The notes under the pieces: model-generated | What the model saw: the letters and a program-made list of their open reading frames with translations, nothing else | What the model was told of the DNA's origin: nothing | Databases searched by the model: none | Origin: Chitinophagales bacterium | Lineage (GTDB): Bacteria > Bacteroidota > Bacteroidia > Chitinophagales > Saprospiraceae | DNA length: 33,955 nt | Direction: 5' to 3' | Assembly (NCBI GenBank): GCA_013298845.1 | Contig: JAAFJN010000047.1 | Coordinates: forward strand, 1-33,955 | Position numbers and translations under genes: made by a program | Shown: positions 15,722 to 33,499 of the stretch, one piece after another | Layout of the letters: every line of letters begins with the position of its first letter | Numbering within the stretch: position 1 is the first letter of the stretch

Positions 15722-16018
15722 CTAAAAGCTCACCAATTCTGAAAATCTGCATGGACGGAAGAACCTGTCTCTTTCGATTCCAAGTCACAACCTATCTCTG
15801 AAACTTTCTAATTCATGCAAACTAAAGCTTCATCGCTCGTTTTCGATGCCAACGACATAGCCGAAGAAAATCTGCTCTTCCTCATCGTATTCAGTCGGAT
15901 ACCGTGTTCGGACAGAAGACGCGTGAAAAAATTTGCAGATAATCTTAGGGTCTGACTCTTGCATATGATTTCAAACTTTGCGAAAGTCGGCTAAAATTTC
16001 CTTTGTAAGAAGTTTCAT
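15722..16018 (-). CDS. DUF2958-family protein containing three in-frame TGA codons
   Basis: ATG 16018 opens a 98-codon frame ending at TAG (15722-15724), interrupted only by TGA at codons 16, 63 and 78 (minus positions 15973-15971, 15832-15830, 15787-15785). The product begins MKLLTKEILADFRKV and contains KFFHASSVRTRYPTEYDEEE, FFGYVVGIENER, SFSLHELESFRDRL and LGIERDRFF, which I recognise as DUF2958. That family normally reads E-x-GYFSL-x-EL and FGLGIERD, so the second and third TGA fall where Gly is expected. Three gaps filled by single TGAs, with the frame and C-terminal family motif (ERD) kept, argue against simple decay. DUF2958 proteins are common on plasmids and conjugative elements; their function is unknown. 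Not detectable as one gene with the standard code. Confidence 0.75.
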
Positions 16019-16037
16019 GGTAGTATTGAAAAGAACT

Positions 16038-16072
16038 AAAAAATGCGGACTTCCAACCGCAATACAAAGATA
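16038..16072 (-). promoter_or_regulatory. Promoter and leader hairpin (possible attenuator) of the DUF2958 gene
   Basis: On the minus strand TATCTTTG (16072-16065) is a -7 box. It is followed at once by TGCGG-TTGGAAGT-CCGCA and T6 (16060-16038), a small terminator-like hairpin only about 20 bp before the ATG at 16018. The remaining 16073-16286 shows no gene that I can support. Confidence 0.5.
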
Positions 16073-16286
16073 CGGAAAGAATAAAATACTCTTGAAATTG
16101 TAAGATGAAAAAGTAGGCTTAGGAAGCTTTATTTCATTACTCTGCTAATGAGGAAAAACTATGTTCTCCTGTCAATGACGGATATGATAGTATATCCGCA
16201 GGAAATGATTGGAAAGTTAAAAGGACACATTTGGAGAGTCATTCCAGTAATGGAAAAGGAGGAGAGAGACTCCCCTCCATCTAAGG

Positions 16287-16610
16287 TTAGGTAATCTCTC
16301 TCTCTTCAAGAGTGTCCCGGATTGCACGTTGGTTGTAAAGCAATTTCAACCTGTAAGCTTCTTCCAGACTGGCTGTTGAGGTGCCAATGTCAACAAAGTC
16401 TTTCTCCTGTTTGTGATCGAATCGTCATCAAATAGTGAGATTGTCATACTGTTGTGCATAGGCTTTCGCTTGTTCCGCCAGGAACTCCGTAGTTGGCTCT
16501 ACATTGTCGGTAAAGGCTACTACATACCTCCTGATGAAATCTCACTGAAGTAACTCAGTGAAACCAGAAAGGTCTGCTCAATTCAAAATGCGAACAATCT
16601 TTTCCTCCAT
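16287..16610 (-). CDS. 107-codon element protein with four in-frame TGA codons (one TGA-TGA pair)
   Basis: ATG 16610 begins MEEKIVRILN and the frame runs to TAA at 16287-16289. It is interrupted only by TGA at codons 11, 23, 61 and 62 (16580, 16544, 16430 and 16427 downward). Between the stops the sequence is protein-like: DFIRRYVVAFTDNVEPTTEF, then after the TGA-TGA pair RFDHKQEKDFVDIGTSTASL and EEAYRLKLLYNQRAIRDTLE. This resembles small proteins of Bacteroidota conjugative elements with a core of the type GGW-x-D-x-x-x-x-x-x-x-VD and a later NQxAIxD, where the tandem TGA would be Gly-Gly. That likeness is from memory and weaker than for DUF2958. It probably forms a transcription unit upstream of the DUF2958 gene. 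Function unknown. Confidence 0.6.
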
Positions 16611-16663
16611 TGTACTAAGAAAAAAGTAAAAAGTGCTTTCTAAATAGCACGGAGCAAAATTAC

Positions 16664-16701
16664 AAAAAAAGCAGAAAACTAACGGGTTTCCTGCTTTTTT
16701 T
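16664..16701. terminator. Bidirectional terminator-like hairpin
   Basis: AAAAAAAGCAG (16664-16674) pairs with CTGCTTTTTTT (16691-16701); the inner AAA/TTT continues the stem, with T7 on either strand. It lies between the 107-codon gene and the TTTTAAAAG array. Confidence 0.6.
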
Positions 16702-16768
16702 AAACCTTTTAAAAGCCTTTTTACAACTTTACAAATCGTTTTACAACTTTACAAGCACCTTTTTAAAC
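16700..16768. repeat. Cluster of TTTTAAAAG / TTTTACAACTTTACAA boxes
   Basis: The segment holds TTTTTTTAAACC, CTTTTAAAAGCC, two copies of TTTTACAACTTTACAA (second at about 16739), and CTTTTTAAAC, each about 10-12 bp apart. Like boxes recur at 18675-18800, 24219-24257 and 24798-24835, always in front of element genes. It lies upstream of the 107-codon gene (minus) and, before the IS insertion, faced the 18280 gene (plus). Confidence 0.5.
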
Positions 16769-16865
16769 TGGCTATTTATAGTTGCTTTCAACTTTAAAGA
16801 ATTTCCATACTGCCATAAAACAGCTATACTGAGATGGTCTAATTAATCCGCACAAACAACTCTTT

Positions 16866-16873
16866 TACTTTTG
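16866..16873 (+). promoter_or_regulatory. -7 box (TACTTTTG) of the IS3 transposase
   Basis: TACTTTTG fits TAnnTTTG and ends 7 bp before the orfA ATG at 16881. It lies just inside the left inverted repeat, as in many IS promoters. Confidence 0.6.
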
Positions 16874-16880
16874 TGCAAAT

Positions 16881-17168
16881 ATGGAAAAGAAACAATCGGT
16901 CAAAAAACGACGTAAGTACGATGCAGGCTTCAAGTCTGAGGCTTTAAAAATGGTCAGTTCTGGGCGGAGCGTGAGCGAGGTTGCGCGAACGCTTGGGATT
17001 GGGGAAAACCTGCTATACAATTGGCGTGCAGAAACTGCCTCGATGCAAACGCCTGATAACCAATTGATTATCAACGAAAATGAGCAACTCCGCAAACAAC
17101 TTCGTCAAGCGGAAACGGAACGGGACATTTTAAAAAAAGTTATCTCCATTTTAAGCCCCAAAACGTAG
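16881..17168 (+). CDS. IS3-family transposase OrfA (HTH)
   Basis: A 95-residue protein with an N-terminal helix-turn-helix (RKYDAGFKSEALKMVSSGRS, then VSEVARTLGIGENLLYNWR) and a C-terminal leucine-zipper-like helix (ENEQLRKQLRQAETERDILK). It binds the IS ends. It overlaps orfB by 1 nt (TAG/GTG at 17166-17170). Confidence 0.92.
   Translation: MEKKQSVKKRRKYDAGFKSEALKMVSSGRSVSEVARTLGIGENLLYNWRAETASMQTPDNQLIINENEQLRKQLRQAETERDILKKVISILSPKT
17132..17139 (+). other. A7G slippage site for -1 frameshift (OrfAB)
   Basis: AAAAAAAG lies near the end of orfA. A -1 slip on AAA-AAA leads into the orfB frame, which is open from before this point (reading SYLHFKPQNVVAIYG), so a fused OrfAB transposase would be made as in other IS3 elements. 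Confidence 0.75.
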
Positions 17169-18064
17169 TGGCGATTTATGGGTTGGTGTCGAAGTTGCGT
17201 TCGATGTTCGGAATTGACCTGCTTTGTAGTGTTTTGGAGTTGTCCAAAAGTGCTTTTTACGCCTGGCAACGCTCGGCAACGTATGTATTGAAAGCGGAAA
17301 AATCCAAAAAAGCGGAGGCGGTTAAAGTGGTTTTTGAGGAACATCGTAAACGGTATGGAGCGCGTCGAATTGTGGTCGAATTACAAGAAAAAGGGCATGA
17401 AATGGGTCGTTACCAAGTGCGTTCGTTGATGAAACATCAAAATTTGGTGGCTTTACAGCCTAAAAGTTTTGTCCCAAAAACGACCGATTCCCGCCATCAA
17501 ATGGGCCGAAGTCCGAATTTGTTGTTGGATGAAACAGGCAAACGCAAGGGCGCAAATCGTCCATTTGAGGTTTTGGTGGGTGATATCACCTACATACCGC
17601 TTCAAAACGGGGATTTCGTGTATTTGGCCACTTTTCAGGATATGTTCACCCGGGTCGTTTTGGGTTGGGAATTGATGGCAACGATGCCCGCAGAACTCGC
17701 AACCAAGGCACTGCAAAAAGCGATTGACCGCCGGAAATTGCCTAAAAACATGATTGTCCACACCGATGGTGGCGGCCAATATGCGTCGAACCGTTTCCAG
17801 CAATTGCTAAAAGCGCACGATTTTGCACAAAGCATGACCCGAAAAGACAATCATTATGACAATGCCATGGGCGAAAGTTTTTTCTCTCGAACCAAGGCCG
17901 AAATGCTCCAAAATGGTGCATTTGCCAATTTTGAAGATGCGTATTCAGAGATTTTCGAGTATATTGAAGTCTATTACAACAAAAAACGCAGACATTCAGG
18001 CATTGACTATGATTTTCCCGAGCGTTTTGAAAAAAAATGCTTGGATAAGCAAAAGGAAGGATAA
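17168..18064 (+). CDS. IS3-family transposase OrfB (DDE integrase core)
   Basis: A 298-residue integrase-type transposase. A helical N-terminal region with KRYGARRIVVELQEKGHEMG precedes the DDE core: Asp in VGDITYIPL (about residue 138), Asp in VHTDGGGQYAS (about 199) and Glu in NAMGESFFSRTKAE (about 235). It ends with YNKKRRHSGIDYDFPERFE, the family's usual tail. Free OrfB would use GTG 17168; the active product is most likely the OrfAB fusion made by -1 slippage at the A7G run. Confidence 0.93.
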   Translation: MAIYGLVSKLRSMFGIDLLCSVLELSKSAFYAWQRSATYVLKAEKSKKAEAVKVVFEEHRKRYGARRIVVELQEKGHEMGRYQVRSLMKHQNLVALQPKSFVPKTTDSRHQMGRSPNLLLDETGKRKGANRPFEVLVGDITYIPLQNGDFVYLATFQDMFTRVVLGWELMATMPAELATKALQKAIDRRKLPKNMIVHTDGGGQYASNRFQQLLKAHDFAQSMTRKDNHYDNAMGESFFSRTKAEMLQNGAFANFEDAYSEIFEYIEVYYNKKRRHSGIDYDFPERFEKKCLDKQKEG

Positions 18065-18279
18065 CTTTGAGTGCGACAACACAAAAGGGTTCATTGCACA
18101 ATGGCAACCAGCCGTCGTCTTTCGCTCTGAACAAGTGTTAATCCATACCTCAAAACCTATATATTATCAACAAGTCAATCTCCTTATGGAGAAAACTGTG
18201 CGGCTAAACTGAACCACCTCATACCATTGCAATTTGAAACTACTTGGGTATAAGAAACTATTTACATTTTCCTGTACCT

Positions 18280-18669
18280 ATGAATAGCATGGATAACAGC
18301 GTTCCTTCTGAAGGTGAAAACCAACAGCCGTCCTCCCTTGAATTAGACCTTGATAAAATAGAGAACGATGCCTATAAATGGGTTTTTGATACCTTCGATA
18401 CAGATAAACTTACAAAAGACCAAATTATAGAATTGGTTAAATTACACATGCGAAAGCATGTATATCAACTGCAATTCCAAATGGTTCTTGAGAAATACCA
18501 GGGAACAGTTGCTCAATATGAAGAAATTGCTCGTAGGCTGGATAATATTGACGTACTAAAAATCCAGGCAGCCGAATGAAAAGATGCTCTAATCAGCGAG
18601 CAAGCGAGGGTTATTTGACAACTTTTGACCCAAAAAGATGAAAAAAACTTTACAATAAACCTGAATTAA
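18280..18669 (+). CDS. Small helical element protein with two in-frame TGA codons
   Basis: From ATG 18280 (MNSMDNSVPSEGENQQPSSL) the frame meets TGA at 18577-18579 and 18616-18618 and ends at TAA 18667-18669, 129 codons. The part before the first TGA is clearly coding (DAYKWVFDTFDTDKLTKDQI, QYEEIARRLDNIDVLKIQAA). The continuation KDALISEQARVI-(TGA)-QLLTQKDEKNF keeps a helical, charged character. Predicted to be mostly helical or coiled coil; no family recognised. Stopping at the first TGA would give a 99-residue protein, so the extension is plausible rather than proven. The IS3 insertion lies just 58 bp upstream, separating the gene from its probable original control region. Confidence 0.5.
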
Positions 18670-18674
18670 AGACC

Positions 18675-18800
18675 TTTTAAAAGCACTTTTAAAGCTGTTT
18701 AAAAGTTGTAAAACGTATCTATAAACCCTTGTAAAAATAGACGTTTTCAATACATTGGAATGGTTTTCAAGTGTAAAATCTTTCTTTTAAAAGTTTTAAA
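18675..18800. repeat. TTTTAAAAG-box clusters upstream of the 18803 gene
   Basis: TTTTAAAAG (18675-18683), TTTTAAAG (18687-18694) and GTTTAAAAG (18697-18705) are spaced 10-12 bp. A second pair, TTTTAAAAG (18785-18793) and TTTTAAA (18794-18800), ends 2 bp before the ATG at 18803. These look like phased binding sites overlapping the start region. Confidence 0.5.
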
Positions 18801-18802
18801 CC

Positions 18803-19351
18803 ATGACTTACGTTCTCCCCAAAGACTTATCGCATAAGTTTTGAATGTCTTTACAAACAGTTTACAACCACCTTACCAAATACGAAGGCAAAATCCGCAC
18901 AAAAAGCGAATATTGAAAGACTTTTATAGACTTGGAAAGCTTTTCAAATGTTTTACAAAGTCGTTTAAAACCTTTTGAAAAGATAGTAGAAGAACCCGCT
19001 AAGAATGAAGACTTTCAAGATGTTGAAAACTTTAAAAAGGGCTTTAATAAACTTGAAGGTGATTACCAGTTAGCTATCCAAAGAACAGAGGATTTAGAAA
19101 AATACAATATCAACCTTCAGGAGCAACTATCCAGGTATGGAATCATGCTTTCCGAGGAAAAGGCAGAAAAGAAGGATGCTCTTGTAAAGTACGATACACT
19201 CCAGAAGGAGTTTCACGAAAAAGTGGAATCCCTGTTCCGTGAAAAATCGCTGTTCGAGAAAAGATACTTCCTGGTACTTGGTTTTTTGATACTGCTTATC
19301 ATTTTTATTGCCCGGACGGTTATTCCGCCATTGTTCGGCGTGGAGAAATAA
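18803..19351 (+). CDS. Coiled-coil membrane-tail protein with two in-frame TGA codons
   Basis: ATG 18803 begins MTYVLPKDLSHKF, then TGA (codon 14), MSLQTVYNHLTKYEGKIRTK SEY, TGA (codon 38), KTFIDLESFSNVLQSRLKPF and on to TAA at 19349-19351, 182 codons. The downstream part forms a long coiled coil (QRTEDLEKYNINLQEQLSRY) and ends in one hydrophobic helix (YFLVLGFLILLIIFIARTVI), a tail anchor. The N-terminal 43 codons are protein-like only across the two TGAs. A shorter standard-code start (TTG 18932) would drop them. Convergent with the rep gene, whose terminator follows at once. No family recognised. Confidence 0.55.
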
Positions 19352-19381
19352 AAAAAACGGTGAGAAACACCGCTTCTCACC
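19351..19381 (-). terminator. Terminator of the rep gene
   Basis: GGTGAGAA (19359-19366) pairs with TTCTCACC (19374-19381); on the minus strand it is followed by T7. It lies 32 bp past the TAG at 19413 and over 200 bp past the in-frame TGA at 19587, so the transcript includes the downstream coding segment. Confidence 0.8.
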
Positions 19382-19412
19382 ATGCCAAAAATTTCATTTT
19401 TAAACAGTCTCA

Positions 19413-20741
19413 CTACTCGTCCGAAGAAGTACCCACCTTTGTATCGTACTCTACAACCTTCAAAAATTCGTCAAATTCAGAAGCCGTTTTTGGAAGGTGT
19501 CTTTTTGCAATGAAGTTGATCCATTGTGCCTGGATCGGCATGGAGTCCAATCCCTTTGTTTCCAATATTCTTTTGAAAAGCGGATTTCAGTTCAATTCCG
19601 CCAGGAATTCAGCCTTCATTTGTGCCGTCTCCTCATCGCTAAGTTTATTCAAAACATCGGCTACCGCTTCCATTTTCTGGTGTTCAAACTGTTTTGCCAA
19701 TTCAGACTTTTTGACCTCCCACTCCTCTGCTTGCTTTATTTCGAGTAGTTTTTCCTGCTTTTTGCCCTTTTGCGCCTTTTCAAATTCCGTTTCGATATGC
19801 CTGAAGTCAACGGTAAAGGCTTTCATCAAATAGGCTGGAATGTTGCGGATTTCCTTTCCGTTTTTCAGTTCCTCTTCCACTACCCTGATATTAGCCAGGA
19901 TATAATCCTCATCATGCTTTTCTAAAAGTTCCTTTGCCAAAGCATCCTTGATACCCATTGCATTCAGCTTATGGAGTATTTCTTCATTGTTTTTTTGCAC
20001 GACTTCATACGGTGCTGTTCCGCTCACCCTGAACACAATGGCAGTGATCTTCCTCCCTTCGTTTTCAAGATCATACACCACTTTCAGGTCGGTTTTCTCG
20101 TTGATTTCCTGGATTGCGGTATCAATGATCCTTTTCTTCAGCATCGTGAAAATCTTGTACTGCTCTGCTTCTACACCTACCAACTTCCTGAAGTTGTCAA
20201 TTTCCATGCGGATTCTGCCAATATTCTGGTAGTCTTTCAGAACCTCGTACAGTGCCAAACTATGCTTGCTGTTCAGTCCCCTTCGGATAAACAAGTTCAG
20301 TTTAACGTACATCGAAGGTCTTTTGATTGCTTCCAGGATAGGGGTTGGAAACTCAAAATGCACTTCTGATACACCGCCCCTCCTCTGCCCTGTTATCTTT
20401 ACGAAAGCCAGGAACGGGAAAGCTCACCACTCAAATTTCTCTTTGCCCAATATGTTATACTCGATAACCAGTGATACCAACGCTTTTAGTGCTGCTTTGA
20501 GTTCACTGTTATCATTGCGGTTGATTCCTGAAAGTTTTTTGATAATACCTAAGTCAATGGAGAAACTTCTTGCCTCCGGGTTGCGCTTCAGTTGGTCTTT
20601 TGCTATCCAAATGAGCGAGTTCATCGCCTTTCTTTGCTGTAAAGTCGTTACATTATTCATTTGCACCAGACTGCTATGCTTCTTTATTTCCATGACTGTA
20701 TTGCTCTCCTCAAAGAGCGAAATCTGTCTGTTTCAATCCAT
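19413..20741 (-). CDS. Rep_3-type plasmid replication initiator with three in-frame TGA codons
   Basis: Read from ATG 20741 to TAG 19413-19415 the frame has 442 codons, interrupted only by TGA at codons 3, 106 and 385 (20735-20733, 20426-20424, 19589-19587). It begins MD-(TGA)-NRQISLFEESNTVMEI. The first winged helix includes RKAMNSLIWIAKDQLKRNPE; then KEKFEW-(TGA)-AFPFLAFVKITG, IKRPSMYVKLNLFIRRGLNS, KHSLALYEVLKDYQNIGRIR and LKKRIIDTAIQEINEKTDLK, all typical of Rep_3 initiators, where the residue after EW is usually Gly. After the third TGA come NPLFKRILETKGLDSMPIQA and a conserved-looking tail. Under the standard code it breaks into separate pieces (20424-20693 and 19587-20363). It binds iterons to start replication, and six iterons lie upstream; the terminator sits after the TAG, supporting one gene. 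Confidence 0.8.
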
Positions 20742-20822
20742 TATGAGTGAATTAAAGTAAAATAACAAAACCGCCGACGGTGTTATGTTATCCTAAAAAA
20801 ATAAAAAATCAAGAGATAATAA

Positions 20823-20981
20823 ATACCCAATTTGTTATGAAGGCATCGTTTTAAATACCCAAAATGTTATAATAGGTGGTCAATGAAATACCGGATTTGT
20901 TATGATGAATTGCCCAATATGTTATGATAGAGGGGTGGTTAAATGCCCAATTTGTTATGTTTAATACCCAATTTGTTATAT
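20823..20981. repeat. Iteron array, probable replication origin of the element
   Basis: Six copies of an 18-bp iteron, consensus ATACCCAATTTGTTATGA, start at 20823, 20855, 20888, 20910, 20943 and 20964. Start-to-start distances are 32, 33, 22, 33 and 21 bp, that is three, three, two, three and two helical turns, so all Rep monomers would face the same side of the DNA. The array sits directly upstream of the rep gene, as in iteron plasmids. The remainder of 20742-21192 holds an AT-rich stretch and the lipoprotein terminator; no gene is seen. Confidence 0.85.
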
Positions 20982-21115
20982 TAGTGACGAGAGAGAGCAG
21001 TGCAGTAGCGATGTTTATCTACCCTAAATATTTAAACAGTTATTATAAACAAATACAAACACAACAAGAAGAGTAGAGGTGTTGTCGTTTGGAATAATGG
21101 ATTTCCTAATAAAAT

Positions 21116-21143
21116 AAAGCCCCCGCAATAATGCGAGGGCTTT
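21116..21143 (-). terminator. Terminator of the lipoprotein gene
   Basis: AAAGCCC-c-CGCA (21116-21127) pairs with TGCG-a-GGGCTTT (21132-21143) around an ATAA loop. On the minus strand ATTTTATT follows. It lies about 50 bp past the lipoprotein stop. Confidence 0.75.
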
Positions 21144-21192
21144 ATAAGAAACAACAATTTAAAAACGATCCATTGCGCTTTTATACTAAGTA

Positions 21193-22005: not shown

Positions 22006-22041
22006 AAAAAAGAATTTAAAAGTTAAAAAATATTTGTGCCG

Positions 22042-22085
22042 CAAAGGTGAAATATTTTGGTTTTGAAACTTTTGTTACGGTAACA
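22042..22085. promoter_or_regulatory. Lipoprotein -7 box and GTTACGGTAAC operator
   Basis: On the minus strand CACCTTTG (22049-22042) is one base off TAnnTTTG. The 13-bp palindrome TGTTACGGTAACA (22073-22085) lies 24-36 bp upstream of it, overlapping the expected -33 zone, and a further half-site TTGTTACC lies near 22107-22114. It sits between the divergent lipoprotein and TPR-regulator genes. Confidence 0.5.
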
Positions 22086-22267
22086 TTGTTCTTAAAATTT
22101 GACTATTGTTACCTTAAACACGAAAATACATTATAGATAATCTACACAAAAGCAAGGTTTTTCAGCTTAGGGAACTTCTTAAAGAACTTTCTTCATACCA
22201 CTCTGCTCAAAGTAGTTTTGCTTTAAAATTTTCTAAAATTTACGGAAAAAGCATCAATAGAAATTTT

Positions 22268-23311: not shown

Positions 23312-23341
23312 TTATGCACCTTATGTCATATACTACTTTGA

Positions 23342-23384
23342 GAAAAAAAAGCCGCCCAGGAAGATACCCCGGTTGGCTGTTTTT
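23342..23384. terminator. Bidirectional terminator between convergent genes
   Basis: AGCC...CCCAGG pairs imperfectly with CCCCGG..GGCT (about 23350-23378), with T5 on the plus strand and T8 on the minus strand. It separates the TPR regulator and SprT-like genes. It directly follows the SprT TGA, which shows TGA acting there as a genuine stop. Confidence 0.6.
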
Positions 23385-24103: not shown

Positions 24104-24131
24104 TGTAACGTTTATGTTTGGTACGTTACAA
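24103..24131. promoter_or_regulatory. TTGTAACG/CGTTACAA inverted repeat at the SprT-like start
   Basis: TTGTAACG (24103-24110) and CGTTACAA (24124-24131) form a perfect 8-bp inverted repeat with a 13-bp spacer, just upstream of and touching the ATG. The GTAAC/GTTAC core recalls the operator near 22073. It could be an operator or a leader hairpin. Confidence 0.45.
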
Positions 24132-24196
24132 AGCCTAATCACTAAGCCTTTAAAATCAAGACTATCAATATATTGACGGCATTCGATTATGATCTA

Positions 24197-24214: not shown

Positions 24215-24218
24215 TTGA

Positions 24219-24257: not shown

Positions 24258-24320
24258 TTATAAAACCTTGACTATCCATCAAGAGGGACTATAAGCATTT
24301 ATTTTACATATTCATAAGGT

Positions 24321-24707
24321 ATGAAGGATTTCGACAAACGAAATGGCCTGAAAAAAGGAATCAACAACCTTAGTCAGGATTTCTATGTAAGGGAAAGGGA
24401 AATATGGTATGTTCATCTTGGCGTAAACCTTTGATTTGAAGAAGACGGAAAAGGAGATGAGTTTAAAAGACCTGTACTGGTTTTAAAGAAAATCGGAAAC
24501 ATGTTTGCCGTGCTGCCTATGACCTCGAAAGGGAAAGACAGTCCTTTCTATTATCGCCTACCTGATAGTTATTTTGATTGACCTTCCAGGATCATTCTTT
24601 CTCAGGGTAGAGCCATAGATAAATGCAGATTTTTGGACAAAATCGGTATGGTATCGGAAGGGGACTTTAAAGACATAAAAGAAAAACTTAAAGCATTGAT
24701 GCTTTAA
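24321..24707 (+). CDS. PemK/MazF-type toxin with two in-frame TGA codons
   Basis: ATG 24321 begins MKDFDKRNGLKKGINNLSQD; the frame runs to TAA 24705-24707 (128 codons) with TGA at codons 38 (24432-24434) and 87 (24579-24581). Recognisable PemK/MazF features: REREIWYVHLGVNL-(TGA)-FEEDGKGDEFKRPVLVLKK, then FAVLPMTSKGKD, and (TGA)-PSRIILSQGRAIDKCRFLDK. In this family the segment usually reads GVNIGFEQDGKG, so the first TGA falls on an expected Gly; the second is compatible with Gly but not diagnostic. MazF-type toxins are ribosome-independent mRNA endonucleases. No adjacent antitoxin gene is seen. Under the standard code only a 37-residue stub would be made, so any toxicity would require UGA readthrough. 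Confidence 0.75.
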
Positions 24708-24893: not shown

Positions 24894-26762
24894 ATGGACG
24901 GTAACTCTTTAAACATTACAAATGAACTCCTTGAAAGCCTAAAAGCACTTGTGCCGGAGGCGTTCTCAGAGGAGAAATTAGACGTTCAAAAGTTGCAAAC
25001 ACTTTTGGGCGAAGCCGTGAATACCGACCCGGAACGTTATCAACTTTCCTGGGCTGGCAAGTCTGAAGCTTACAAGGTTTTGCAGATGCCGACCACTGCA
25101 ACTTTGATCCCGCAACCGGAGCAATCCGTCAATTGGGACGAGGCCGAAAATATCTTCATCGAAGGTGAAAATTTGGAAGTACTGAAGGTGCTGCAAAAGT
25201 CCTATTATGGAAAGGTGAAGATGATTTACATAGACCCTCCCTACAATACGGGGAGCGATTCATTTATATACCCCGATAAGTTTTCAGAAACAAAAGAGGA
25301 GTACCTGAAACGTATTGGAGAGAAGGATGAGGACGGCTACATGATGAAGGAAGGGCTGTTCCGTAAAAACAGTAAGGAGAACGGACAGTTTCATAGCAAC
25401 TGGCTCAATATGATGTTGCCCCGTTTGTTCTTGGCTCGCAATCTTTTGAAAGATGATGGGGTAATATTCATTTCCATTGATGATAATGAGCAATCAAACC
25501 TCAAACTTTTAATGGATGAAATTTTTGGTGAAGAGAATTTCGTAGCTAATGTGATCTGGCAAAAGAAATATAGCCCTCAAAATGATGCAAAATGGTTTTC
25601 CAGTATGCACGATCATATTTTAGTTTATGCGAAGAATAAAGAAATATGGAGGCCATATTTGTTGGATAGAACCGAGGAGCAGAATGCACGTTATTCAAAT
25701 CCAGATAATGATTCAAGGGGAGATTGGAAATCAAGTGATTTCTTGGTGAAAACATATTCAAAGGAATACGACTACCCAATTACAACTCCTTCTGGAAGAG
25801 TTGTAAATCCTCCGCCTGGACGTTGCTGGAGAACATCGAAGCAAAATTTCCAAAAATTGGTATCTGAAAATAGGATATGGTTCGGTAATAATGGCGATAA
25901 TGTTCCATCGGTAAAAAAATTCTTAACTGAAGTGAAACAGGGGATAACACCATCTACAATATGGTTTAGAACTGAGGTGGGAGATAATCAGGAAGCAGCT
26001 AAGGAAATTAGAGATTTATTTAATGGTTTGCCTTTTGATACTCCCAAGCCAACACGTTTAGTAAAACGCATGTTGCAACTTTCAACTACCGAAGACGAAG
26101 GAGATATTGTTCTTGATTTCTTTGCAGGAAGTGGCACTACTGCACAAGCGGTTTATGACCTAAATGAAGAAGATGGAGGAAATAGAGTTTATATATGTGT
26201 TCAATTGCCAGAAAGAACCGATGATAATGACTCAAACTTTGATACTGGTTATAAAACAATTTCAGAGGTATCCGAAGCGAGAATAAAAAAGTCAATTGAA
26301 AAGATTACAAAGGAGCGTATTGGAAAAATGAATTTTGCCTCTTTTCAAAATTTATCTTTCCGCAAATACACTTTAACACATTCTAATTTCAAAATCTGGC
26401 GTGGTGATGTAATTGAGAGTGAAGAGGATTTAAAAAAGCAAATGTCACTTTTTGTCACTCCACAAAGAGCTAATGCTCAAACGGAGAATATTCTTTGGGA
26501 ATTACTTATCAAAAATGCAGTACCACTTACCGAAAAAATTGAGTTGATTTTATTGTCGGATGGATCGACAATTTACCATACGGTAGATAAAAGACTGGCA
26601 TTCGTCCTCGACAAATACACGCAAGAAGTGCAAATAGAGGTGTTGAAACTCAAACCCAGAATGGTGATTTGCCTGGATAGCCTTTTCCATAATGAGGATA
26701 AGGTCAAAACTAATGCACAACTGAAATTCCAGGACAACGATATTACTTTTAAGACGGTGTAA
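24894..26762 (+). CDS. mod: Type III restriction-modification methyltransferase (Mod)
   Basis: A 622-residue adenine-N6 methyltransferase of the beta class: catalytic motif IV DPPYNTG at about residue 114 precedes the SAM-binding motif I DFFAGSGTTAQAV at about 407. The intervening part (about 150-380) should hold the target-recognition domain. Mod gives the DNA specificity and protects self DNA; with Res it forms the restriction complex. The res gene follows 3 bp after the TAA. No in-frame TGA and normal TGG use, unlike several smaller genes of the same element. Confidence 0.95.
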   Translation: MDGNSLNITNELLESLKALVPEAFSEEKLDVQKLQTLLGEAVNTDPERYQLSWAGKSEAYKVLQMPTTATLIPQPEQSVNWDEAENIFIEGENLEVLKVLQKSYYGKVKMIYIDPPYNTGSDSFIYPDKFSETKEEYLKRIGEKDEDGYMMKEGLFRKNSKENGQFHSNWLNMMLPRLFLARNLLKDDGVIFISIDDNEQSNLKLLMDEIFGEENFVANVIWQKKYSPQNDAKWFSSMHDHILVYAKNKEIWRPYLLDRTEEQNARYSNPDNDSRGDWKSSDFLVKTYSKEYDYPITTPSGRVVNPPPGRCWRTSKQNFQKLVSENRIWFGNNGDNVPSVKKFLTEVKQGITPSTIWFRTEVGDNQEAAKEIRDLFNGLPFDTPKPTRLVKRMLQLSTTEDEGDIVLDFFAGSGTTAQAVYDLNEEDGGNRVYICVQLPERTDDNDSNFDTGYKTISEVSEARIKKSIEKITKERIGKMNFASFQNLSFRKYTLTHSNFKIWRGDVIESEEDLKKQMSLFVTPQRANAQTENILWELLIKNAVPLTEKIELILLSDGSTIYHTVDKRLAFVLDKYTQEVQIEVLKLKPRMVICLDSLFHNEDKVKTNAQLKFQDNDITFKTV

Positions 26763-26765
26763 GGC

Positions 26766-29498
26766 ATGAAACTACAATTTGATAAAAATCAGCAGTATCA
26801 GTTAGATGCGATCCAGGCAGTGATTGACCTTTTTGAAGGTCAAGAGCTGAATACATCGAATTTTGAGTTCAGTCTTTCTGATAATGCAGCGGGGAGTTTG
26901 CAGTTCTCCGAAGCAGGGGTTGGAAATAAATTGACCGTTGCACCTGCGCAAGTGCTGGAAAATCTTCATAAACTTCAGTATCAAAATAGCATCGAAAAAT
27001 CAGAAGAACTGGAGCTTTTGACCTATAAAGACGATGATGGCAAAAAAGTGTATGCTGAGTTTGGAAACTACTCCATCGAAATGGAAACAGGGACGGGTAA
27101 AACCTACGTTTACCTACGTTCCATCTACGAACTCAATAAGGTGTATGGATTCAAAAAGTTCATCATTGTTGTTCCGTCGGTCGCTATCCGTGAAGGTGTA
27201 ATCAAAAACCTGCAAATCACCTTCGAGCATTTTCAGGAAATTTATGAAAACATACCAGCTAATTTTGAATTGTATGACTCCAAGAAATTGGTCAGTCTGG
27301 CCAACTTTGCCCGCAGCAATACCATTCAAATAATGGTTATCAATATTGATAGCTTCACCAAAGACCAAAATATCATCAACCAGGTCAGAGAAAGAGGTAT
27401 CAAGCCTATCGAGCATTTGCAAGCGACTAATCCGATTGTAATAGTGGATGAGCCGCAAAACATGGAAACAGATATTCGTAAAAAAGCAATTGCGAACCTG
27501 AACCCCTTGTTTACCATGCGCTATTCAGCTACGCATACGAATTTGTACAACCTGCTTTACAAACTCGACCCCGTAAAAGCATACGACTTGGGTTTGGTAA
27601 AACAGATCGAGGTAGATTCTGTACTTTCTCAGTTTGATAGTGGTGGTGCATTTGTCAGTTTGGACGGATTCAAATTGGCGAAGCAGTCCGTTTCAACAAG
27701 CTTGACACTACTTGTAAGCGAAAAGAATGGCGTTGTAAAAAAGTCAGTTACCGCAAAGACGGGCGACAATCTCTATCTTTTATCCGGTGGCGTTGAAGCC
27801 TACAAAGACGGGTATGTCATTAACTCCATTGATTCAGAAGAGGAGTTGATTGAGTTTTCCAGTGGTAACGTACTTTACAAAGGGCAACCACAAGGCGGTT
27901 TGACCGATGAGGTGCAGAAGGAAATGATTAGGGCGACCATTGAAAACCACTTCAAAAAAGAACTCCAACTGAATGAGTTGGGTATCAAGGTTCTTTCTGT
28001 CTTCTTCATTGATAAGGTCGCAAATTATCGCTCTTATGATGCTGCCGGAAACCCTAAAGCAGGGCAATTTGCTATTTGGTTTGAAGAGTTGTTTGCTGAA
28101 ATATCAAAAAATCCTAAATATAAAAACCTCTATCCACACGCCGTTTCGGATATGCACGATGGGTATTTCTCCCAGGACAAGGGCAAATTCAAAGACAGTA
28201 AAGAGGGTAAGGGCAATAAGTCCGATGACGAAGCCTACCAATTAATAATGAAGGATAAGGAAAGGCTTTTGGATATGAATACGCCATTACGTTTCATTTT
28301 CAGCCATTCGGCACTAAGAGAGGGATGGGACAACCCGAACGTGTTTCAGATTTGCACCTTAAATGAAACCAAATCTGAAATCAAAAAACGTCAGGAAATC
28401 GGTCGTGGTTTGCGCTTATGTGTTGACCAGACAGGGGAAAGAAACTTAGAAAGGAGCATCAACCGTTTGACGGTAATTGCCAATGAGAGTTATGAGGATT
28501 TTGCCAAAGCCCTGCAAAATGAGATAGAGCAGGATTGCGGTGTGAAATTCGAGGGTAGAATCAAAAATGCCCGTTCCCGTACCAAAGTAGAACTCAAAAA
28601 GAGTTGGCAACTTGACCAAAACTTCATGGATTTGTGGGAGAGAATCAAGCATAAAACGGAGTACAGCGTCAATTACGATACCCAGGAACTCATTGGCCAT
28701 GCCAGTGGGGGAGTCAAGAATATGCCTTCCGTTCCAAAGCCTCAGATTCAGCGTATAAAAACGGAAACCACTTTTGTCAGGGATGACGGTGGTAGATTGC
28801 TTGAGGTGGGCGGCAATGTGAAGAGTTCCAAAGACCGGGTTATCAGTGATACTAAGTTCGATATACCGGACTTCGTTGGCTATATCCAGTCAAAAACGGA
28901 ACTAACCAGGGATACCATTACAAAAATCATCTTGAATTCCGGTCGTCTGGGAGATATTTTCAACAACCCTCAGATGTTCATGGATGCAGTAGTGAGGGCG
29001 ATCAAAGTTGAATTTGACAGACTAAAAATCAACGGTATCAAGTACGAAAAAATAGCAGGTCTGAGTTACGAAATGAAACTCTTTGAGAGCGTGGAAATCG
29101 AATCTTACATCGAGAATTTGATTGCCGTTCAAAACCAGGAGAAGACCCTTTACAACTACATCCTAATTGACTCTCTTTCTTCACCTGAAAGGAAGTTTGC
29201 AGAGGAGTGTGAGTCCAGGGACGACATTCTTTTCTACATCAAACTGCCTTCTTGGTTCTTTATCAAAACCCCTATTGGAAACTACAATCCCGATTGGGCA
29301 TTGATAAAAAGAGAGGAGGGCGACGAGACCAAAATCTACTTCGTTGCTGAAACGAAGGATGCAAAAGCAGCCCAGGACATGACCTTATTGCGTGAATCGG
29401 AACGTATGAAAATCAAGTGCGGTGAAAAACATTTCGCTGAGTTTTCGGATGTTAGGTTTCAGGCGGTGGGGAGTGTTGGGGATTTGAAAATACTGTAA
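26766..29498 (+). CDS. res: Type III restriction enzyme helicase-nuclease subunit (Res)
   Basis: A 910-residue SF2 helicase-nuclease. Walker A METGTGKT (about residue 108), DExx box IVDEPQNME (about 227), motif III RYSATHT (about 254), motif V HSALREGWDNPNVFQ and motif VI RQEIGRGLRL form the motor. Near the C-terminus, NPDWALIKREEGDE and FVAETKDAK (about residues 842-875) give the PD-(D/E)xK endonuclease. It translocates from unmethylated sites and cuts when complexes collide. All key motifs are present, so the system looks functional. It is 3 bp downstream of mod. Confidence 0.95.
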   Translation: MKLQFDKNQQYQLDAIQAVIDLFEGQELNTSNFEFSLSDNAAGSLQFSEAGVGNKLTVAPAQVLENLHKLQYQNSIEKSEELELLTYKDDDGKKVYAEFGNYSIEMETGTGKTYVYLRSIYELNKVYGFKKFIIVVPSVAIREGVIKNLQITFEHFQEIYENIPANFELYDSKKLVSLANFARSNTIQIMVINIDSFTKDQNIINQVRERGIKPIEHLQATNPIVIVDEPQNMETDIRKKAIANLNPLFTMRYSATHTNLYNLLYKLDPVKAYDLGLVKQIEVDSVLSQFDSGGAFVSLDGFKLAKQSVSTSLTLLVSEKNGVVKKSVTAKTGDNLYLLSGGVEAYKDGYVINSIDSEEELIEFSSGNVLYKGQPQGGLTDEVQKEMIRATIENHFKKELQLNELGIKVLSVFFIDKVANYRSYDAAGNPKAGQFAIWFEELFAEISKNPKYKNLYPHAVSDMHDGYFSQDKGKFKDSKEGKGNKSDDEAYQLIMKDKERLLDMNTPLRFIFSHSALREGWDNPNVFQICTLNETKSEIKKRQEIGRGLRLCVDQTGERNLERSINRLTVIANESYEDFAKALQNEIEQDCGVKFEGRIKNARSRTKVELKKSWQLDQNFMDLWERIKHKTEYSVNYDTQELIGHASGGVKNMPSVPKPQIQRIKTETTFVRDDGGRLLEVGGNVKSSKDRVISDTKFDIPDFVGYIQSKTELTRDTITKIILNSGRLGDIFNNPQMFMDAVVRAIKVEFDRLKINGIKYEKIAGLSYEMKLFESVEIESYIENLIAVQNQEKTLYNYILIDSLSSPERKFAEECESRDDILFYIKLPSWFFIKTPIGNYNPDWALIKREEGDETKIYFVAETKDAKAAQDMTLLRESERMKIKCGEKHFAEFSDVRFQAVGSVGDLKIL

Positions 29499-29534
29499 AA
29501 ACTAATCAAATACGATTCATTTTAATGCCTTCCC

Positions 29535-31301
29535 ATGAAGCTAATTTACGTTCAAATTACAAATTACAAAAACCTTTCAGAGCTTGAGTTGCACTTAAAC
29601 CCAAGAAACAATTTTATTGTTGGTGAAAATAACCTTGGAAAATCAAACTTTCTACTGCTACTTTGTACGCTATTTACTCGTAAGTCATTTGGAAATGATG
29701 ATTTCATGGACATTCAAAATCCAATCGAAATTAGATTTACATTAGAGTTGGAAGAGATTGAAATCGGAATTTTTGATGACTTTTTTGAACCTGACGATTC
29801 CAATAAAATAACTATAAAAGCTATTCAACCGACTATTGAAGACCCGATTGATTTTTGGCATGAGGCCACCAATACGAGGATTCAGCCTTCATTAATTAAA
29901 TGCCTTAATTTTCTATATTACGATTCAATTAGAAACCCATCAAACGAGCTTTCTTTTAATAAGAGCAAAGGGGTTGGTAAGTTTTTACACCATATAATAC
30001 AGAAGCACCTACAAGACAGTGGAACAACCGATGCTGATTTTGTTGATACGGCCAAAACAGATGATTTGTCTGAACATATAAATAGTGTAATTTGTAAAAT
30101 AAAGGCATTTAGCCAATACTCAATAAGTGTTGAAGTTGAAAGAGATGTTGAAAATCTCCTCTCAAGAATCTTAACATTAAAGGATGGGAATAACAAATAT
30201 ATACACCAAGCAGGTTATGGTGTCCAATTTCTTGCAATAATTACACTTACTATACTCCAAAAAATTCTTGAAACGATGGAGTTGAAGAGGGATAGAGGTG
30301 TTTATGAATATAAAGAAACAGAGGAGAGCGAAGATGTAAAAAAAGCAATATCCCTTATTGTCGGCTTTGATGAACCAGAAATTCATCTTCACCCATATCT
30401 TCAAAGGTCTTTAGTAAAGTATATAAATAGGATTTTAACAAATGGAGAACCGGATTTTATATCACTCCTTGAGTCAGTTTTTGGAGTAAGCAAGGTCATT
30501 GGCCAATCTATCATTGTTACACATTCGGCTAACATCATTTTGAATGATTATACAGAAATAGTTAGGTTCTATAAAAAGAATAATACCCTATTCGTTAAAA
30601 GCGGGTCGCAAATTACTATAGAACCGCACTTGAAAAAGCACCTTGAAATGCAATTCCCTTTTATAAAAGAGGCATTCTTTTCTCGCTGCGCTATTGTTGT
30701 TGAAGGAGTTACTGAATTCGCTGCTTTGCCATCCTTCGGCCTTAAAATGGGATATGATTTTGATGAATATGGCATTTCCGTAATAGGGGCGGGTGGTAAA
30801 GGTTCTGCGAAGCCCATCATTGAACTATTGAATAAATTTGAAATACCTACAATCTGCATTGTTGATAGAGATGACGACCCAGTAAGTACTGACCCATTAA
30901 TACTTCAAACTACTAAAAGAGATTTTGAAGAAGAGATAGTAACTTTAATCGTAAATGGGTATGAAGATGTACTAAAGTCCATTGTTTGTACTTACGAAAA
31001 TGACCCAAGAGATTTTCAAGGCCAACCAACCTATACTGCCTACCAAAGCAATCGTCTAATAAAATTAATACCCAAATATGCGACCTTCATTGACCAAACC
31101 ATAGTAATAAATGTTGATTTGAACCTTGCTCAACTTGGAGCTAATGATCTTGAATTAAAAAAACTATGGTATTTGTCTTGGTTTTTGAAAAACAAAGACA
31201 TTGTTTTGGGAAAAGTAATTGGTGAGACTTTAGAAATCACCCAGATTCCAGATATTTATACTACCTTGATAAACAGGGCAGTCCTACTTTCTAACTCATA
31301 G
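29535..31301 (+). CDS. OLD-family ATPase/TOPRIM endonuclease, Gabija GajA-like
   Basis: A 588-residue protein: N-terminal SMC/AAA-type ATPase (MKLIYVQITNYKNLSELEL; Walker A VGENNLGKSNF near residues 29-39; Walker B GFDEPEIHLHPYLQ near 277) and C-terminal TOPRIM nuclease (VVEGVTEFAALPSF near 389, CIVDRDDDP near 443). This is the OLD nuclease layout. Together with the UvrD-like helicase gene 3 bp downstream it has the gene order of Gabija defence (GajA-GajB). In Gabija, GajA nicks DNA and GajB senses DNA ends. It starts 36 bp after res. Assignment rests on domain order and pairing; class 2 OLD systems with a helicase are the alternative. Confidence 0.82.
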   Translation: MKLIYVQITNYKNLSELELHLNPRNNFIVGENNLGKSNFLLLLCTLFTRKSFGNDDFMDIQNPIEIRFTLELEEIEIGIFDDFFEPDDSNKITIKAIQPTIEDPIDFWHEATNTRIQPSLIKCLNFLYYDSIRNPSNELSFNKSKGVGKFLHHIIQKHLQDSGTTDADFVDTAKTDDLSEHINSVICKIKAFSQYSISVEVERDVENLLSRILTLKDGNNKYIHQAGYGVQFLAIITLTILQKILETMELKRDRGVYEYKETEESEDVKKAISLIVGFDEPEIHLHPYLQRSLVKYINRILTNGEPDFISLLESVFGVSKVIGQSIIVTHSANIILNDYTEIVRFYKKNNTLFVKSGSQITIEPHLKKHLEMQFPFIKEAFFSRCAIVVEGVTEFAALPSFGLKMGYDFDEYGISVIGAGGKGSAKPIIELLNKFEIPTICIVDRDDDPVSTDPLILQTTKRDFEEEIVTLIVNGYEDVLKSIVCTYENDPRDFQGQPTYTAYQSNRLIKLIPKYATFIDQTIVINVDLNLAQLGANDLELKKLWYLSWFLKNKDIVLGKVIGETLEITQIPDIYTTLINRAVLLSNS

Positions 31302-31304
31302 AAT

Positions 31305-33095
31305 ATGACTCAGCCACAATTAAACCCAATTACAGAGATTCTTCAAAGTCATAATGGAGACAATGAACAAAGTGGTTTCATAACCACTTTGAGTAAAAAG
31401 GTTATACTTCAAGCACCAGCCGGATATGGTAAGACTAAGACAATGGTAAGCAAATTAGCTTATTTGATTTCTACGAGGCAAATATTGTCTCCTAAAAAAG
31501 TCTTGGCTCTTACATTTAGTGTAAATGCTGCCTATAAAATCAAAAAGGATGTTGTCGAGCAGTTGCCTAAAATTTTACAAGGCAATGAAGGGCAGTTATC
31601 CATTAGCCTAAATAGTATTGTTTCAGTATCAAACTATCATGGATTTTGCAGAAAGGTTCTTAGTCGCTATGGGTATTTATTACATGAAAATTTAAGAAAG
31701 GTCAATGAATTTGTTTCTTTTGATGACAGCAGAGATTCCAATATAACTCGCTTGAATTTAGGAATAACCGCCGATGTAGTGATTGCTTGCACCTCATACA
31801 GTGAAAGAATTAAGTTGTCCGATAGAGCATATTTACTTGCTCAGTTCAATGCCTATAATAATCATGTATTGCAAAACTTTGTTCCTAATAACTTCATTCC
31901 ATTTAACTCAATTCTAACCTTAACACTAAAACTTTTTCACGAACATCCAAATATATTAGCATTTTATCAGAAATTATATCCAGTAATCATAGTTGATGAA
32001 TTTCAGGACACGAATTTTTTTGGTTATGCTTTACTGAAAAAACTAATTTCAGATAATACTTCTCTTTATTTAGTTGGCGATGCTCTACAAAGAATATACG
32101 GATTTATTGGAGCAATTCCAAATATACTTGAAGACTGTAAAGAAGTATATGACATGGAAGTTGTCCTTTTGAAGCAGAATTACCGTTTTATGAATAACCC
32201 AAATATGTTGCTTCTTGATGGGAATATTAGGAAAAATGCAGAGAACTTAATCTATCCCCAAATTACAGAAAATGCACAAATTAACCTTGCCGTAGTCCAA
32301 TCGCAAGATGAGGAAGCTTTATATGTCCTTGGAGAGTGCCAACGTTTACTTGAAAATGATGCTACATCTAAAGTTGCCATACTATTCAGACTTGGGTACA
32401 ACAATAGGAATACCCAAAGGGTGATTGAGGAATTTGATACTCAAGGAGTCAATTATTTTTACGGACTTTTTAGTGATGAAGACGACAACTACAAAGATTT
32501 TCATTTTGAGTGTGCCGTTGAGTTTTCTAACCTATTGAGACATTCAAGATTATCCAAACGAACTTGTAAAAAACACATTTCAAACTTAAAAGCAAAATAC
32601 GGCGCACAACCAGAACCTGTTTATGGTTCGCTCATTAATCTACTTGAGATATTCTACAATCGTTTATACTCAGAGTATAGTTTTCTTATTCTTGATGACG
32701 AGGATAAGTTAATTTTGATTAAGGAAACTTTTGATGGGTTTGGATTAAAGCAATATATGGAGTATGTTGACACTAACATTATTATTTCAACTATTCATGG
32801 CGCAAAAGGACTTGAATGGGATTATGTCATAATGCCCGATATGGAACAATATTCCTTACCAAGTTGGTTCGGCTTCTGCGGCGATTGCCCACATAAAAAT
32901 GGGTGTCAACTAAATCCTGGTTCCGTAAGTCCAAAGTTTTTAGAAGAACTTAGCGTTTTTTACGTCGGCTTCACAAGGGCTAAAAAAGAAGTATTTTTTT
33001 CAGCAAGCAGAACAGGTATTGGGTATAAAGGAGTAGAAAATCGCAACCTATCATGTTTTCTTCAATTGCCTGGAATTGCGATTGCTAATCCCTAA
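31305..33095 (+). CDS. UvrD-like SF1 helicase, Gabija GajB-like
   Basis: A 596-residue helicase. Motifs: Walker A APAGYGKTKTM (about residue 37), Ia LALTFSVNAA, motif II VDEFQDTNF (about 230), motif III GDALQRIYGFIGA, motif IV LLKQNYRF, motif V STIHGAKGLEWDYV and motif VI FYVGFTRAKKEVF (about 550). A Cys cluster FCGDCPHKNGC lies between motifs V and VI (near residue 524) and could bind Zn or an Fe-S cluster. The gene follows the OLD nuclease by 3 bp, and the pair ends in a strong terminator, so they form one unit, probably with the R-M genes upstream. Confidence 0.85.
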   Translation: MTQPQLNPITEILQSHNGDNEQSGFITTLSKKVILQAPAGYGKTKTMVSKLAYLISTRQILSPKKVLALTFSVNAAYKIKKDVVEQLPKILQGNEGQLSISLNSIVSVSNYHGFCRKVLSRYGYLLHENLRKVNEFVSFDDSRDSNITRLNLGITADVVIACTSYSERIKLSDRAYLLAQFNAYNNHVLQNFVPNNFIPFNSILTLTLKLFHEHPNILAFYQKLYPVIIVDEFQDTNFFGYALLKKLISDNTSLYLVGDALQRIYGFIGAIPNILEDCKEVYDMEVVLLKQNYRFMNNPNMLLLDGNIRKNAENLIYPQITENAQINLAVVQSQDEEALYVLGECQRLLENDATSKVAILFRLGYNNRNTQRVIEEFDTQGVNYFYGLFSDEDDNYKDFHFECAVEFSNLLRHSRLSKRTCKKHISNLKAKYGAQPEPVYGSLINLLEIFYNRLYSEYSFLILDDEDKLILIKETFDGFGLKQYMEYVDTNIIISTIHGAKGLEWDYVIMPDMEQYSLPSWFGFCGDCPHKNGCQLNPGSVSPKFLEELSVFYVGFTRAKKEVFFSASRTGIGYKGVENRNLSCFLQLPGIAIANP

Positions 33096-33127
33096 ATAAA
33101 TTTCTTACCTTCACATCCAGTTAGTAG

Positions 33128-33149
33128 CGTACCCTTCGGTACGTTTTTT
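33128..33149 (+). terminator. Terminator of the defence operon
   Basis: CGTACC (33128-33133) and GGTACG (33138-33143) pair around CTTC, followed by T6. Confidence 0.85.
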
Positions 33150-33175
33150 CTTTTTTATTTTTTGTCCCTTACACC

Positions 33176-33499
33176 ATGTTTGATTTACCGCAAAGACTGG
33201 ATTGGCTTGAAATTAGGGCATTGAACGAGTTTAAGGAGGTTTTTGAAGAAGGTGAGTGAAAGGAGTCAGATGATGATGAAGTTGCTGACCTTATAAATGA
33301 GATTGCTGATTTTCGAACGCCGCACCTCTTTTATCAAGTTCTTGAGGTCGCAACCTTCCATCCCATGCTTGCTTACGACACCCACGAGTTAAGCGAAACA
33401 TTTCCCAAAGCAGGAGCAATTGAACTGATTCAAACCAATATCTACTTGCATCTAAAGCAGCATTTAAGTGACTGGTACTACCAAAACAAAACTGAGTAA
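33176..33499 (+). CDS. Small acidic protein with one in-frame TGA codon
   Basis: ATG 33176 begins MFDLPQRLDWLEIRALNEFK; TGA at codon 28 (33257-33259) interrupts FEEGE-(TGA)-KESDDDEVADLIN, and the frame goes on as RTPHLFYQVLEVATFHPMLA and ends DWYYQNKTE-TAA at 33497-33499, 107 codons. The downstream part has no ATG near its beginning, so the TGA would kill the gene under the standard code. Two Trp codons are TGG. No family recognised. It follows the defence-operon terminator by 26 bp. Confidence 0.5.

Follow-up and report, generated by a model that had tools for sequence, protein, structure and literature searches.

Absconditabacteria (SR1) and Gracilibacteria (BD1-5) use code 25, in which glycine is encoded by UGA as well as by GGN, release factor 2 (RF2) has been lost and UGA no longer acts as a stop. 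In the available text of PMC8629427 these are the only bacteria listed with UGA as glycine, and the change is genome-wide and accompanied by a tRNA-Gly(UCA). The initial annotation of the DNA studied here had named the same two groups and noted that such a use is not known in Bacteroidota or their plasmids. Some phages and prophages whose hosts have the standard code likewise use stop codons as sense codons in a subset of their genes (UAG as glutamine in Lak and crAss-like phages, UGA as tryptophan in code 4 phages); according to the available part of PMC10746230, which treats code 25 phages and standard-compatible phages as well, such phages often carry suppressor tRNAs and use glutamine or tryptophan. 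Reading of UGA by a tRNA-Trp with a short stem is discussed in the available part of PMC13092985, and selenocysteine insertion makes UGA a sense codon in single genes. Here we describe a mobile element, W, in a window of 33,955 nucleotides that is the whole of contig JAAFJN010000047.1 in a Saprospiraceae genome (assembly GCA_013298845.1, our G000; 6.37 Mb, 89 contigs). Our reading, to which we give a probability of roughly 0.6, is that W is an apparently integrated, mobilisable Saprospiraceae element in which UGA stands for glycine within a replication and upkeep module, with conditional decoding in trans acting as a lock on replication. Unlike in code 25, the recoding is limited to one section of a mobile element, whose hosts have kept RF2 and showed no UCA tRNA among the tRNAs read. 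Unlike the recoded phages, W is a Rep_3 element that uses glycine, with no suppressor tRNA found on it, and selenocysteine differs in that here glycine faces the UGAs, of which there are many per gene. With Rep_3 iteron plasmids W shares the Rep3_N and Rep3_C domains and iteron-like repeats; it differs from them in the in-frame UGAs of its rep gene and in sharing its contig with genes of chromosomal type, a tRNA gene among them.

When TGA is read as sense, seven frames of the window open. They encode a DUF2958 protein (15722..16018, minus strand, PF11171; TGA at codons 16, 63 and 78), a small conserved protein (16287..16610, minus; codons 11, 23, 61 and 62), an uncharacterised open reading frame (ORF; 18280..18669, plus; codons 100 and 113), a predicted winged helix-turn-helix (HTH) protein followed by a long helix (18803..19351, plus; codons 14 and 38), the Rep_3 initiator (19413..20741, minus; codons 3, 106 and 385), a PemK/MazF-like protein of toxin-antitoxin type (24321..24707, plus, PF02452; codons 38 and 87) and a weak candidate for an ocr-like anti-restriction protein (33176..33499, plus, phrog_2568 E = 0.0032; codon 28). 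Checked codon by codon, these frames contain TGA 17 times in frame and never TAA or TAG internally, exactly as the initial annotation had claimed, and all terminate in TAA or TAG. The absence of TAA and TAG proves little by itself, because the frames were delimited by TAA/TAG stops and the zero is therefore partly there by construction. Between positions 15600 and 24800 there are 15 ATG-started, TAA/TAG-bounded frames of at least 98 codons with at least one TGA, where 200 dinucleotide shuffles gave 4.3 on average and 9 at most; one such frame reaches at least 300 codons, for which the shuffle maximum was 0. Homology is a stronger test than this control or the stop count, and it gives strong support to five of the seven frames (DUF2958, 16287, 18803, Rep_3 and PemK). 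With TGA entered as X, Pfam matched DUF2958, Rep3_N with Rep3_C, and PemK_toxin, all above their cut-offs, and returned no match for the other four recoded frames. The 33176 frame has a homologue with one TGA in genome G611 (31% identity). Structure prediction for the 18803 product gave a winged helix and, behind it, a long helix (predicted template-modelling score 0.31); its matches in the PDB were weak (best E 0.035), the closest shape being a phage Xis (template-modelling score 0.67 over its 56 residues), and a PDB fold search with the 16287 model returned nothing useful. These models were built with glycine at TGA (code 25), so that they are no test of the residue.

Part of the element follows the standard code. 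No internal TGA occurs in four minus-strand genes, which encode a replication-relaxation family protein (Replic_Relax, PF13814; 8348..9175), a coupling protein-like ATPase of type IV secretion systems (T4CP, HerA/TraG type by Pfam; 9172..10887), a conserved element protein (10899..12359) and an SprT-like protein (PF10263; 23384..24142), and all except the 10899 gene use TGA as their terminator. The original description is amended accordingly: recoding is limited to a part of the element, and the mobilisation genes and sprT are free of internal TGA. Counted without terminal stops, in the recoded set of W (six genes) TGA accounts for 16 of 55 glycine-type codons, as against 0 of 90 in the mobilisation genes and sprT (p = 4e-8). 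The corresponding counts for recoded and standard genes are 8/49 versus 0/92 in the related element L074 (p = 1e-4) and 35/70 versus 0/33 in G611 (p = 5e-8); genome G410 stands outside this test, its TGA-free stop-to-stop ORF set having 3 TGA.

One relative came from a scan of contigs with the W Rep. L074, in contig JALHQW010000012.1 of a Saprospiraceae metagenome-assembled genome (MAG; G395, identical in coordinates to G682 and counted once), has a Rep 71% identical to that of W over residues 1-437 and carries homologues in the same order: Replic_Relax (75% identity), T4CP, 10899, 12363, 13335, DUF2958, 16287, 18803, Rep, SprT and PemK. The homologues of 12363 and 13335 are merely 29% and 21% identical. 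In-frame TGA recur in the same genes (Rep 2, DUF2958 1, 16287 3, 18803 1, PemK 1), again with no internal TAA or TAG and with a single alignment segment for each gene, and the SprT, T4CP, Replic_Relax and 10899 homologues again have none. In both elements sprT lies between two genes with recoding. The L074 counterpart of 18280 at the syntenic position is devoid of TGA, and its alignment is poor.

TGA and GGN codons replace one another between the two elements, an alternation that the initial annotation had named as a check and that takes in GGC, GGG, GGA and GGT. W has TGA where L074 has GGC and GGG at DUF2958 codons 16 and 78, GGA and GGC at 16287 codons 23 and 61, GGC at Rep codon 106 and GGG at PemK codon 38. 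Conversely, L074 has TGA where W has GGT at 16287 codon 16 and Rep codon 65 and GGA at PemK codon 59. Because a swap with GGC or GGT takes more than one base change, the exchange reflects equivalence at the level of translation. Three TGA are common to both elements (DUF2958 codon 63, 16287 codon 62 and 18803 codon 38). The remaining TGA sites face Ser, Ala, Gln, Thr, Glu, Thr and Lys, with Ile and Gln in 18280.

We then recorded which residue the most similar partner carries at each TGA position in 29 ORFs of eight elements (28 with TGA, the other being 18346-18873 of G410; 18280 and 33176 lie outside the set). Glycine faces TGA at 41 of 88 scored sites, followed by glutamate (7), serine (6) and lysine (6), and never cysteine; opposite the real glycine codons of the same ORFs, glycine is found at 150 of 270 sites. 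The log-likelihood of the TGA profile is -189 for glycine and -279 for serine, a difference of 90 nats, with the other 18 residues lower still. Tryptophan and every other residue were rejected on this basis, as was selenocysteine from the cysteine count of 0/88. We also rejected a readthrough motif in cis, since the base after TGA (A 45, T 22, G 16, C 16 of 99) is distributed much like that after GGN and the sites lie all along the genes. Among DUF2958 relatives (L074 counted twice), glycine is opposite codon 63 in 77 of 84 alignments and codon 78 in 72 of 82, as the initial annotation had suggested from family positions, while codon 16 gives no clear verdict (of 84 alignments, 37 have Tyr and 18 have Gly). 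The PemK of Nitratiruptor has glycine opposite W codon 38, lysine opposite W codon 87 and asparagine opposite the TGA of L074. Taken together with the swaps, this lead of glycine over any other residue makes it very probable that UGA means glycine in the replication and upkeep module.

Related elements occur in further genomes. In samples of 398, 386 and 395 genomes at the family, order and phylum level, a Rep_3 match was present in 90, 39 and 18 genomes, respectively. In the family sample nine genomes have in-frame TGA in Rep, with TGA as the only internal stop in eight (G000, G682, G706, G611, G438, G744, G410 and G477) and a decayed copy in G526 (4 TGA and, in this search, 4 TAA, the TAA count ranging from 3 to 5 across searches); no other match listed has any. 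In the order sample TGA was confined to family members already seen and G863, which was rejected as a recoded Rep because its single TGA is the normal stop, and G587 has one TAG. In the phylum sample only G000 has TGA, and both Rep copies of G371 contain a single TAA. In a quickly built tree of 58 Rep_3 proteins the TGA-bearing Reps form two clades, W/G395/G706/G611/G438/G744 and G410/G477, each with a Shimodaira-Hasegawa-like approximate likelihood-ratio support of 100 and no TGA-free Rep inside. A single clade is rejected (approximately unbiased test, p = 2e-5), although long branches call for caution, and the second clade is sister to 20 TGA-free Bacteroidota Reps. A TGA-bearing PemK is present alongside both clades. 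G611 and G410 each have a TGA-bearing pair of T4CP and Replic_Relax genes (10 and 8 TGA in the aligned pair in G611, 4 and 2 in G410) on one contig with a TGA-free pair, and G477 has a TGA-free pair on its Rep contig. Codon 38 of the winged-HTH gene (18914..18916, plus strand), in the predicted wing turn between two strands, is TGA in all five elements in which the gene was found, and 16287 codon 62 is TGA in three of three. Outside these genomes, a plasmid search with Rep gave 1827 records, all below 60% identity (the best-placed being a Geobacter plasmid at 34.5%), PemK gave two Nitratiruptor plasmids (41%) and the winged-HTH gene none. In IMG/VR, the 80 loci matched with DUF2958 had no in-frame stop in the aligned part, and scans with Rep, PemK and 16287 alignments found no relatives.

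One could suppose that these are decaying genes with nonsense mutations, as the Rep of G526 indeed is. However, when W proteins were aligned by tblastn to the seven other elements (G526 left out), the alignments crossed 66 TGA and no TAA or TAG, bearing in mind that such alignments can run through any stop and that X in the query slightly favours stop alignment at shared sites. Neither TAA, TAG nor a split alignment interrupts the recoded genes of relatives other than G526. The ratio of nonsynonymous to synonymous substitution rates (dN/dS) between W and L074 is 0.19 for DUF2958, 0.20 for 16287 and 0.17 for 18803, and lies below 0.11 for Rep and 0.10 for PemK, where synonymous sites are saturated and dS was set to 2. 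With the same setting for saturated sites, the four TGA-free genes give values below 0.09, 0.13, 0.08 and 0.24. Judged from these ratios, the recoded genes are under purifying selection, like their TGA-free neighbours. Since TGA also falls on conserved glycines and one TGA codon is kept in five of five elements, decay is a very improbable explanation, and a pseudogene cluster was rejected: mixed stops with relaxed selection were found in G526 alone.

An artefact of sequencing, assembly or binning would gain from the origin of L074 in a MAG and from the mostly fragmented drafts of the other genomes; the available text of PMC8629427 also warns of contamination in contigs with UGA as glycine. Yet several different genomes show the recoding at different sites, and W and L074 share a gene order in which recoded genes are interleaved with standard ones along a single contig, which argues against contamination. 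We consider an artefact scarcely credible.

The recoded genes resemble the rest of their element. Their G+C content at third codon positions (GC3), recoded against TGA-free, is 0.58/0.58 in L074, 0.28/0.28 in G611, 0.35/0.33 in G410 and 0.45/0.51 in W, so that the two sets of one element look alike, and the codon usage of the two sets correlates at 0.86, 0.97, 0.84 and 0.81, respectively. Moreover, the motif TAnnTTTG, which we take to be the Bacteroidota -7 promoter element, precedes DUF2958 and 16287 by 52-62 bases in each of the two elements, W and L074.

These properties bear on the idea that the module works in a second host with its own UGA = glycine code, such as Absconditabacteria or Gracilibacteria living on Saprospiraceae, and is a silent passenger in Saprospiraceae that standard-code genes can mobilise. 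Such a host would fit the restriction of UGA = glycine among bacteria to those groups (PMC8629427, as far as its available text goes) and a split between standard and recoded genes that follows mobilisation and replication in W and L074. Against it, within each element the GC3 of recoded genes tracks that of TGA-free ones, over a range of 0.28 to 0.58, the promoter motif precedes two recoded genes in both elements, the sister group of the second Rep clade is TGA-free and belongs to Bacteroidota, and the SprT, T4CP and relaxation genes end in TGA. We regard a code 25 host as quite unlikely, and less likely than a trans-acting tRNA given the GC3 values and promoter motifs.

The Saprospiraceae hosts themselves appear to use UGA as a stop. 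The RF2 gene prfB scored above cut-off in eight of eight hosts, with one TAA inside the matched stretch in G611 and G477, a clear departure from the RF2 loss of code 25. Among stop-to-stop stretches of at least 200 codons, 10 of 68 in G000 (with some overlap of loci) and 23 of 55 in G395 terminate in TGA, beyond which the frame often stays open for tens of codons; because long ORFs end in this way, UGA is taken as a stop in these two hosts, the two looked at. The comparisons thus show UGA behaving as glycine through a lineage of related elements whose hosts keep RF2. They suggest a recoded module made up of the Rep_3 initiator, the winged-HTH protein, the DUF2958 protein, the PemK-like protein, the small conserved protein and possibly the anti-restriction protein.

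How might such a module be expressed? We think it most likely that a trans-acting tRNA is present only in some cells, making the module conditional. A glycine tRNA reading UGA would be available in trans in some Saprospiraceae cells or conditions, supplied for example by a helper replicon outside these assemblies. Without it Rep would stop early, at codon 3 in W and codon 65 in L074, and the element would stay put; with it the module would be switched on. The recoding could then act as a lock on replication, as is thought for stop recoding in phage late genes.

Several observations speak against this proposal, beginning with the search for a decoder. A tRNA with anticodon UCA was detected neither by ARAGORN on the contigs that carry the elements nor by Rfam (E up to 10) in the window, L234, L254-L258, L262, L264 and L265 (a set that left out L259-L261, L263 and L364-L369), but several elements stop at contig ends, and so the tRNA may lie on a missing part. 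No UCA anticodon was present among the tRNAs of G000 and G395 whose anticodon was read (48 and 44 tRNA matches, from first scans that scored at most 150 candidates per genome). A pattern of UCA plus T-loop gave 17 matches in G000, all examined, which ARAGORN resolved into tRNA-Glu, tRNA-Met and sequences that are no tRNA, and the 33 of 70 matches examined in G395 included no UCA tRNA. With a glycine-tRNA model, 122 of 150 matches were read in the six other hosts (G410 33/33, G706 22/24, G477 20/21, G744 24/28, G438 13/21, G611 10/23), none with UCA; the glycine tRNAs read have UCC or GCC, plus an ACC pair in G438, and G at position 52 is absent in five of seven aligned glycine tRNAs. A D-arm plus UCA pattern of chromosomal type matched once in the 398 family genomes, in G559, which lacks a TGA-bearing Rep. 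The UCC version of this pattern finds the chromosomal tRNA-Gly in eight of eight hosts and none of four array or second copies tried, placing array-type UCA tRNAs outside its reach. No UCA was read in the tRNA arrays of G000, G410 and G744, no useful conserved tRNA-like sequence was found in intergenic stretches of W and L074, and glycine-type tRNA(UCA) patterns had 0 matches in IMG/VR, where the same pattern with UCC had at least 120.

The remaining points concern the genes themselves. Two of the seven frames are thinly supported by homology (33176 weakly, 18280 poorly). Codon-usage correlations are high for unrelated AT-rich sets too (0.90 between the defence genes of W and G611), and the recoded genes of W correlate at 0.57 with the two long left-hand ORFs of the contig; GC3 is therefore the fairer statement of likeness. 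For Rep, PemK, the winged-HTH gene, 18280 and 33176 of W, no upstream TAnnTTTG was seen. Finally, UGA is read as glycine here by sequence comparison, and the lock is argued by analogy.

Alternatively, the hosts may themselves decode UGA as glycine at some rate through an unrecognised resident tRNA, of odd structure, array-borne or unassembled, with the elements tolerating or exploiting competition between stop and glycine. The similar GC3 of recoded and standard genes, the unremarkable bases following TGA and the unusual tRNA arrays and tRNA-like genes of Saprospiraceae genomes would suit this view. It has to contend with the retention of RF2 in every host, with the TGA-ending long ORFs of two hosts, with the lack of UCA among the elements and host tRNAs searched, and with the TGA-free genes of W, whose 0 TGA to 90 GGN is not what general tolerance predicts. 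We judge a resident tRNA unlikely, though well worth keeping in mind. A bolder and less likely reading is that Bacteroidota elements of two separate Rep_3 lineages use UGA as glycine in the replication module, that UGA remains a stop for the hosts, and that decoding is independent of a canonical tRNA-Gly(UCA); some other route would then work beside RF2, perhaps limited to certain cells, and gate replication.

Among matches listed in the open-licence literature there was no report of UGA as glycine in Bacteroidota mobile elements. What appears new is that UGA is used in this way by one section of a mobile element whose neighbouring genes lack internal UGA, that the hosts retain RF2 and that two separate Rep lineages share the trait. 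Ordinary gene callers would split these replication genes, and such elements are thus likely to have been missed. The findings raise the testable question of whether a code difference can serve as a switch or host-range lock for a replicon, and a glycine-inserting decoder of UGA is still to be found in Saprospiraceae.

Several tRNA loci were recorded along the way. Arrays of 12 to 25 tRNA genes lie on large contigs of G000 (C34; L032:9061-10319), G410 (C37; L324) and G559 (C12; L370, L372). The tRNA(UCA) of G559 sits in a 25-gene array and led nowhere as a candidate decoder: it starts with TTTTAAG rather than GCG and has an acceptor stem that is not of glycine type, in a genome without a TGA-bearing Rep. 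Beside real tRNA genes in G000 (C3:521-595, L021) and G395 (C42, L193; C37, L192) there are tRNA-like copies with a palindromic anticodon arm (type TCCCGA...TCGGGA), in tandem in G395. G438 has two tandem tRNA-Gly-like genes with anticodon ACC (C436; L303:980-1190) that lack U at position 33, have a four-pair anticodon stem by our reading and are each followed by a terminator-like hairpin; as a candidate decoder this pair led nowhere. In G410 (C80:38380-38680, L545), ARAGORN assigns one tRNA gene a four-base anticodon (tgaa).

W lies on a linear contig that runs out inside the element or next to it, and a tRNA-Pro(GGG) gene (7996..8070, plus strand; ARAGORN and Rfam) adjoins the left end of W. 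In front of rep lie iteron-like repeats (20819..20984, plus strand) in 25-nucleotide copies with the core CCCAAtTTGTTATga, which complete the Rep_3 replicon features of W together with Rep3_N and Rep3_C (Pfam). A two-ORF transposase (16881..18064, plus strand; HTH_Tnp_1 and rve by Pfam) is an insertion within the element and has no internal TGA. Positions 13335-15371 encode a long protein whose C-terminal LytTR-like DNA-binding domain falls slightly below the Pfam cut-off and which has a low-identity homologue in L074. Positions 24894-33095 hold a Type III restriction-modification pair followed by a Gabija pair (GajA, GajB), none with an in-frame TGA. Near TGA-bearing or decayed Reps in three genomes, G611 (L256:9285-11613), G526 (L260) and G744 (L262), we also observed a block of nucleoside deoxyribosyltransferase and 8-oxoguanine glycosylase-like genes (Pfam, G611 copies).

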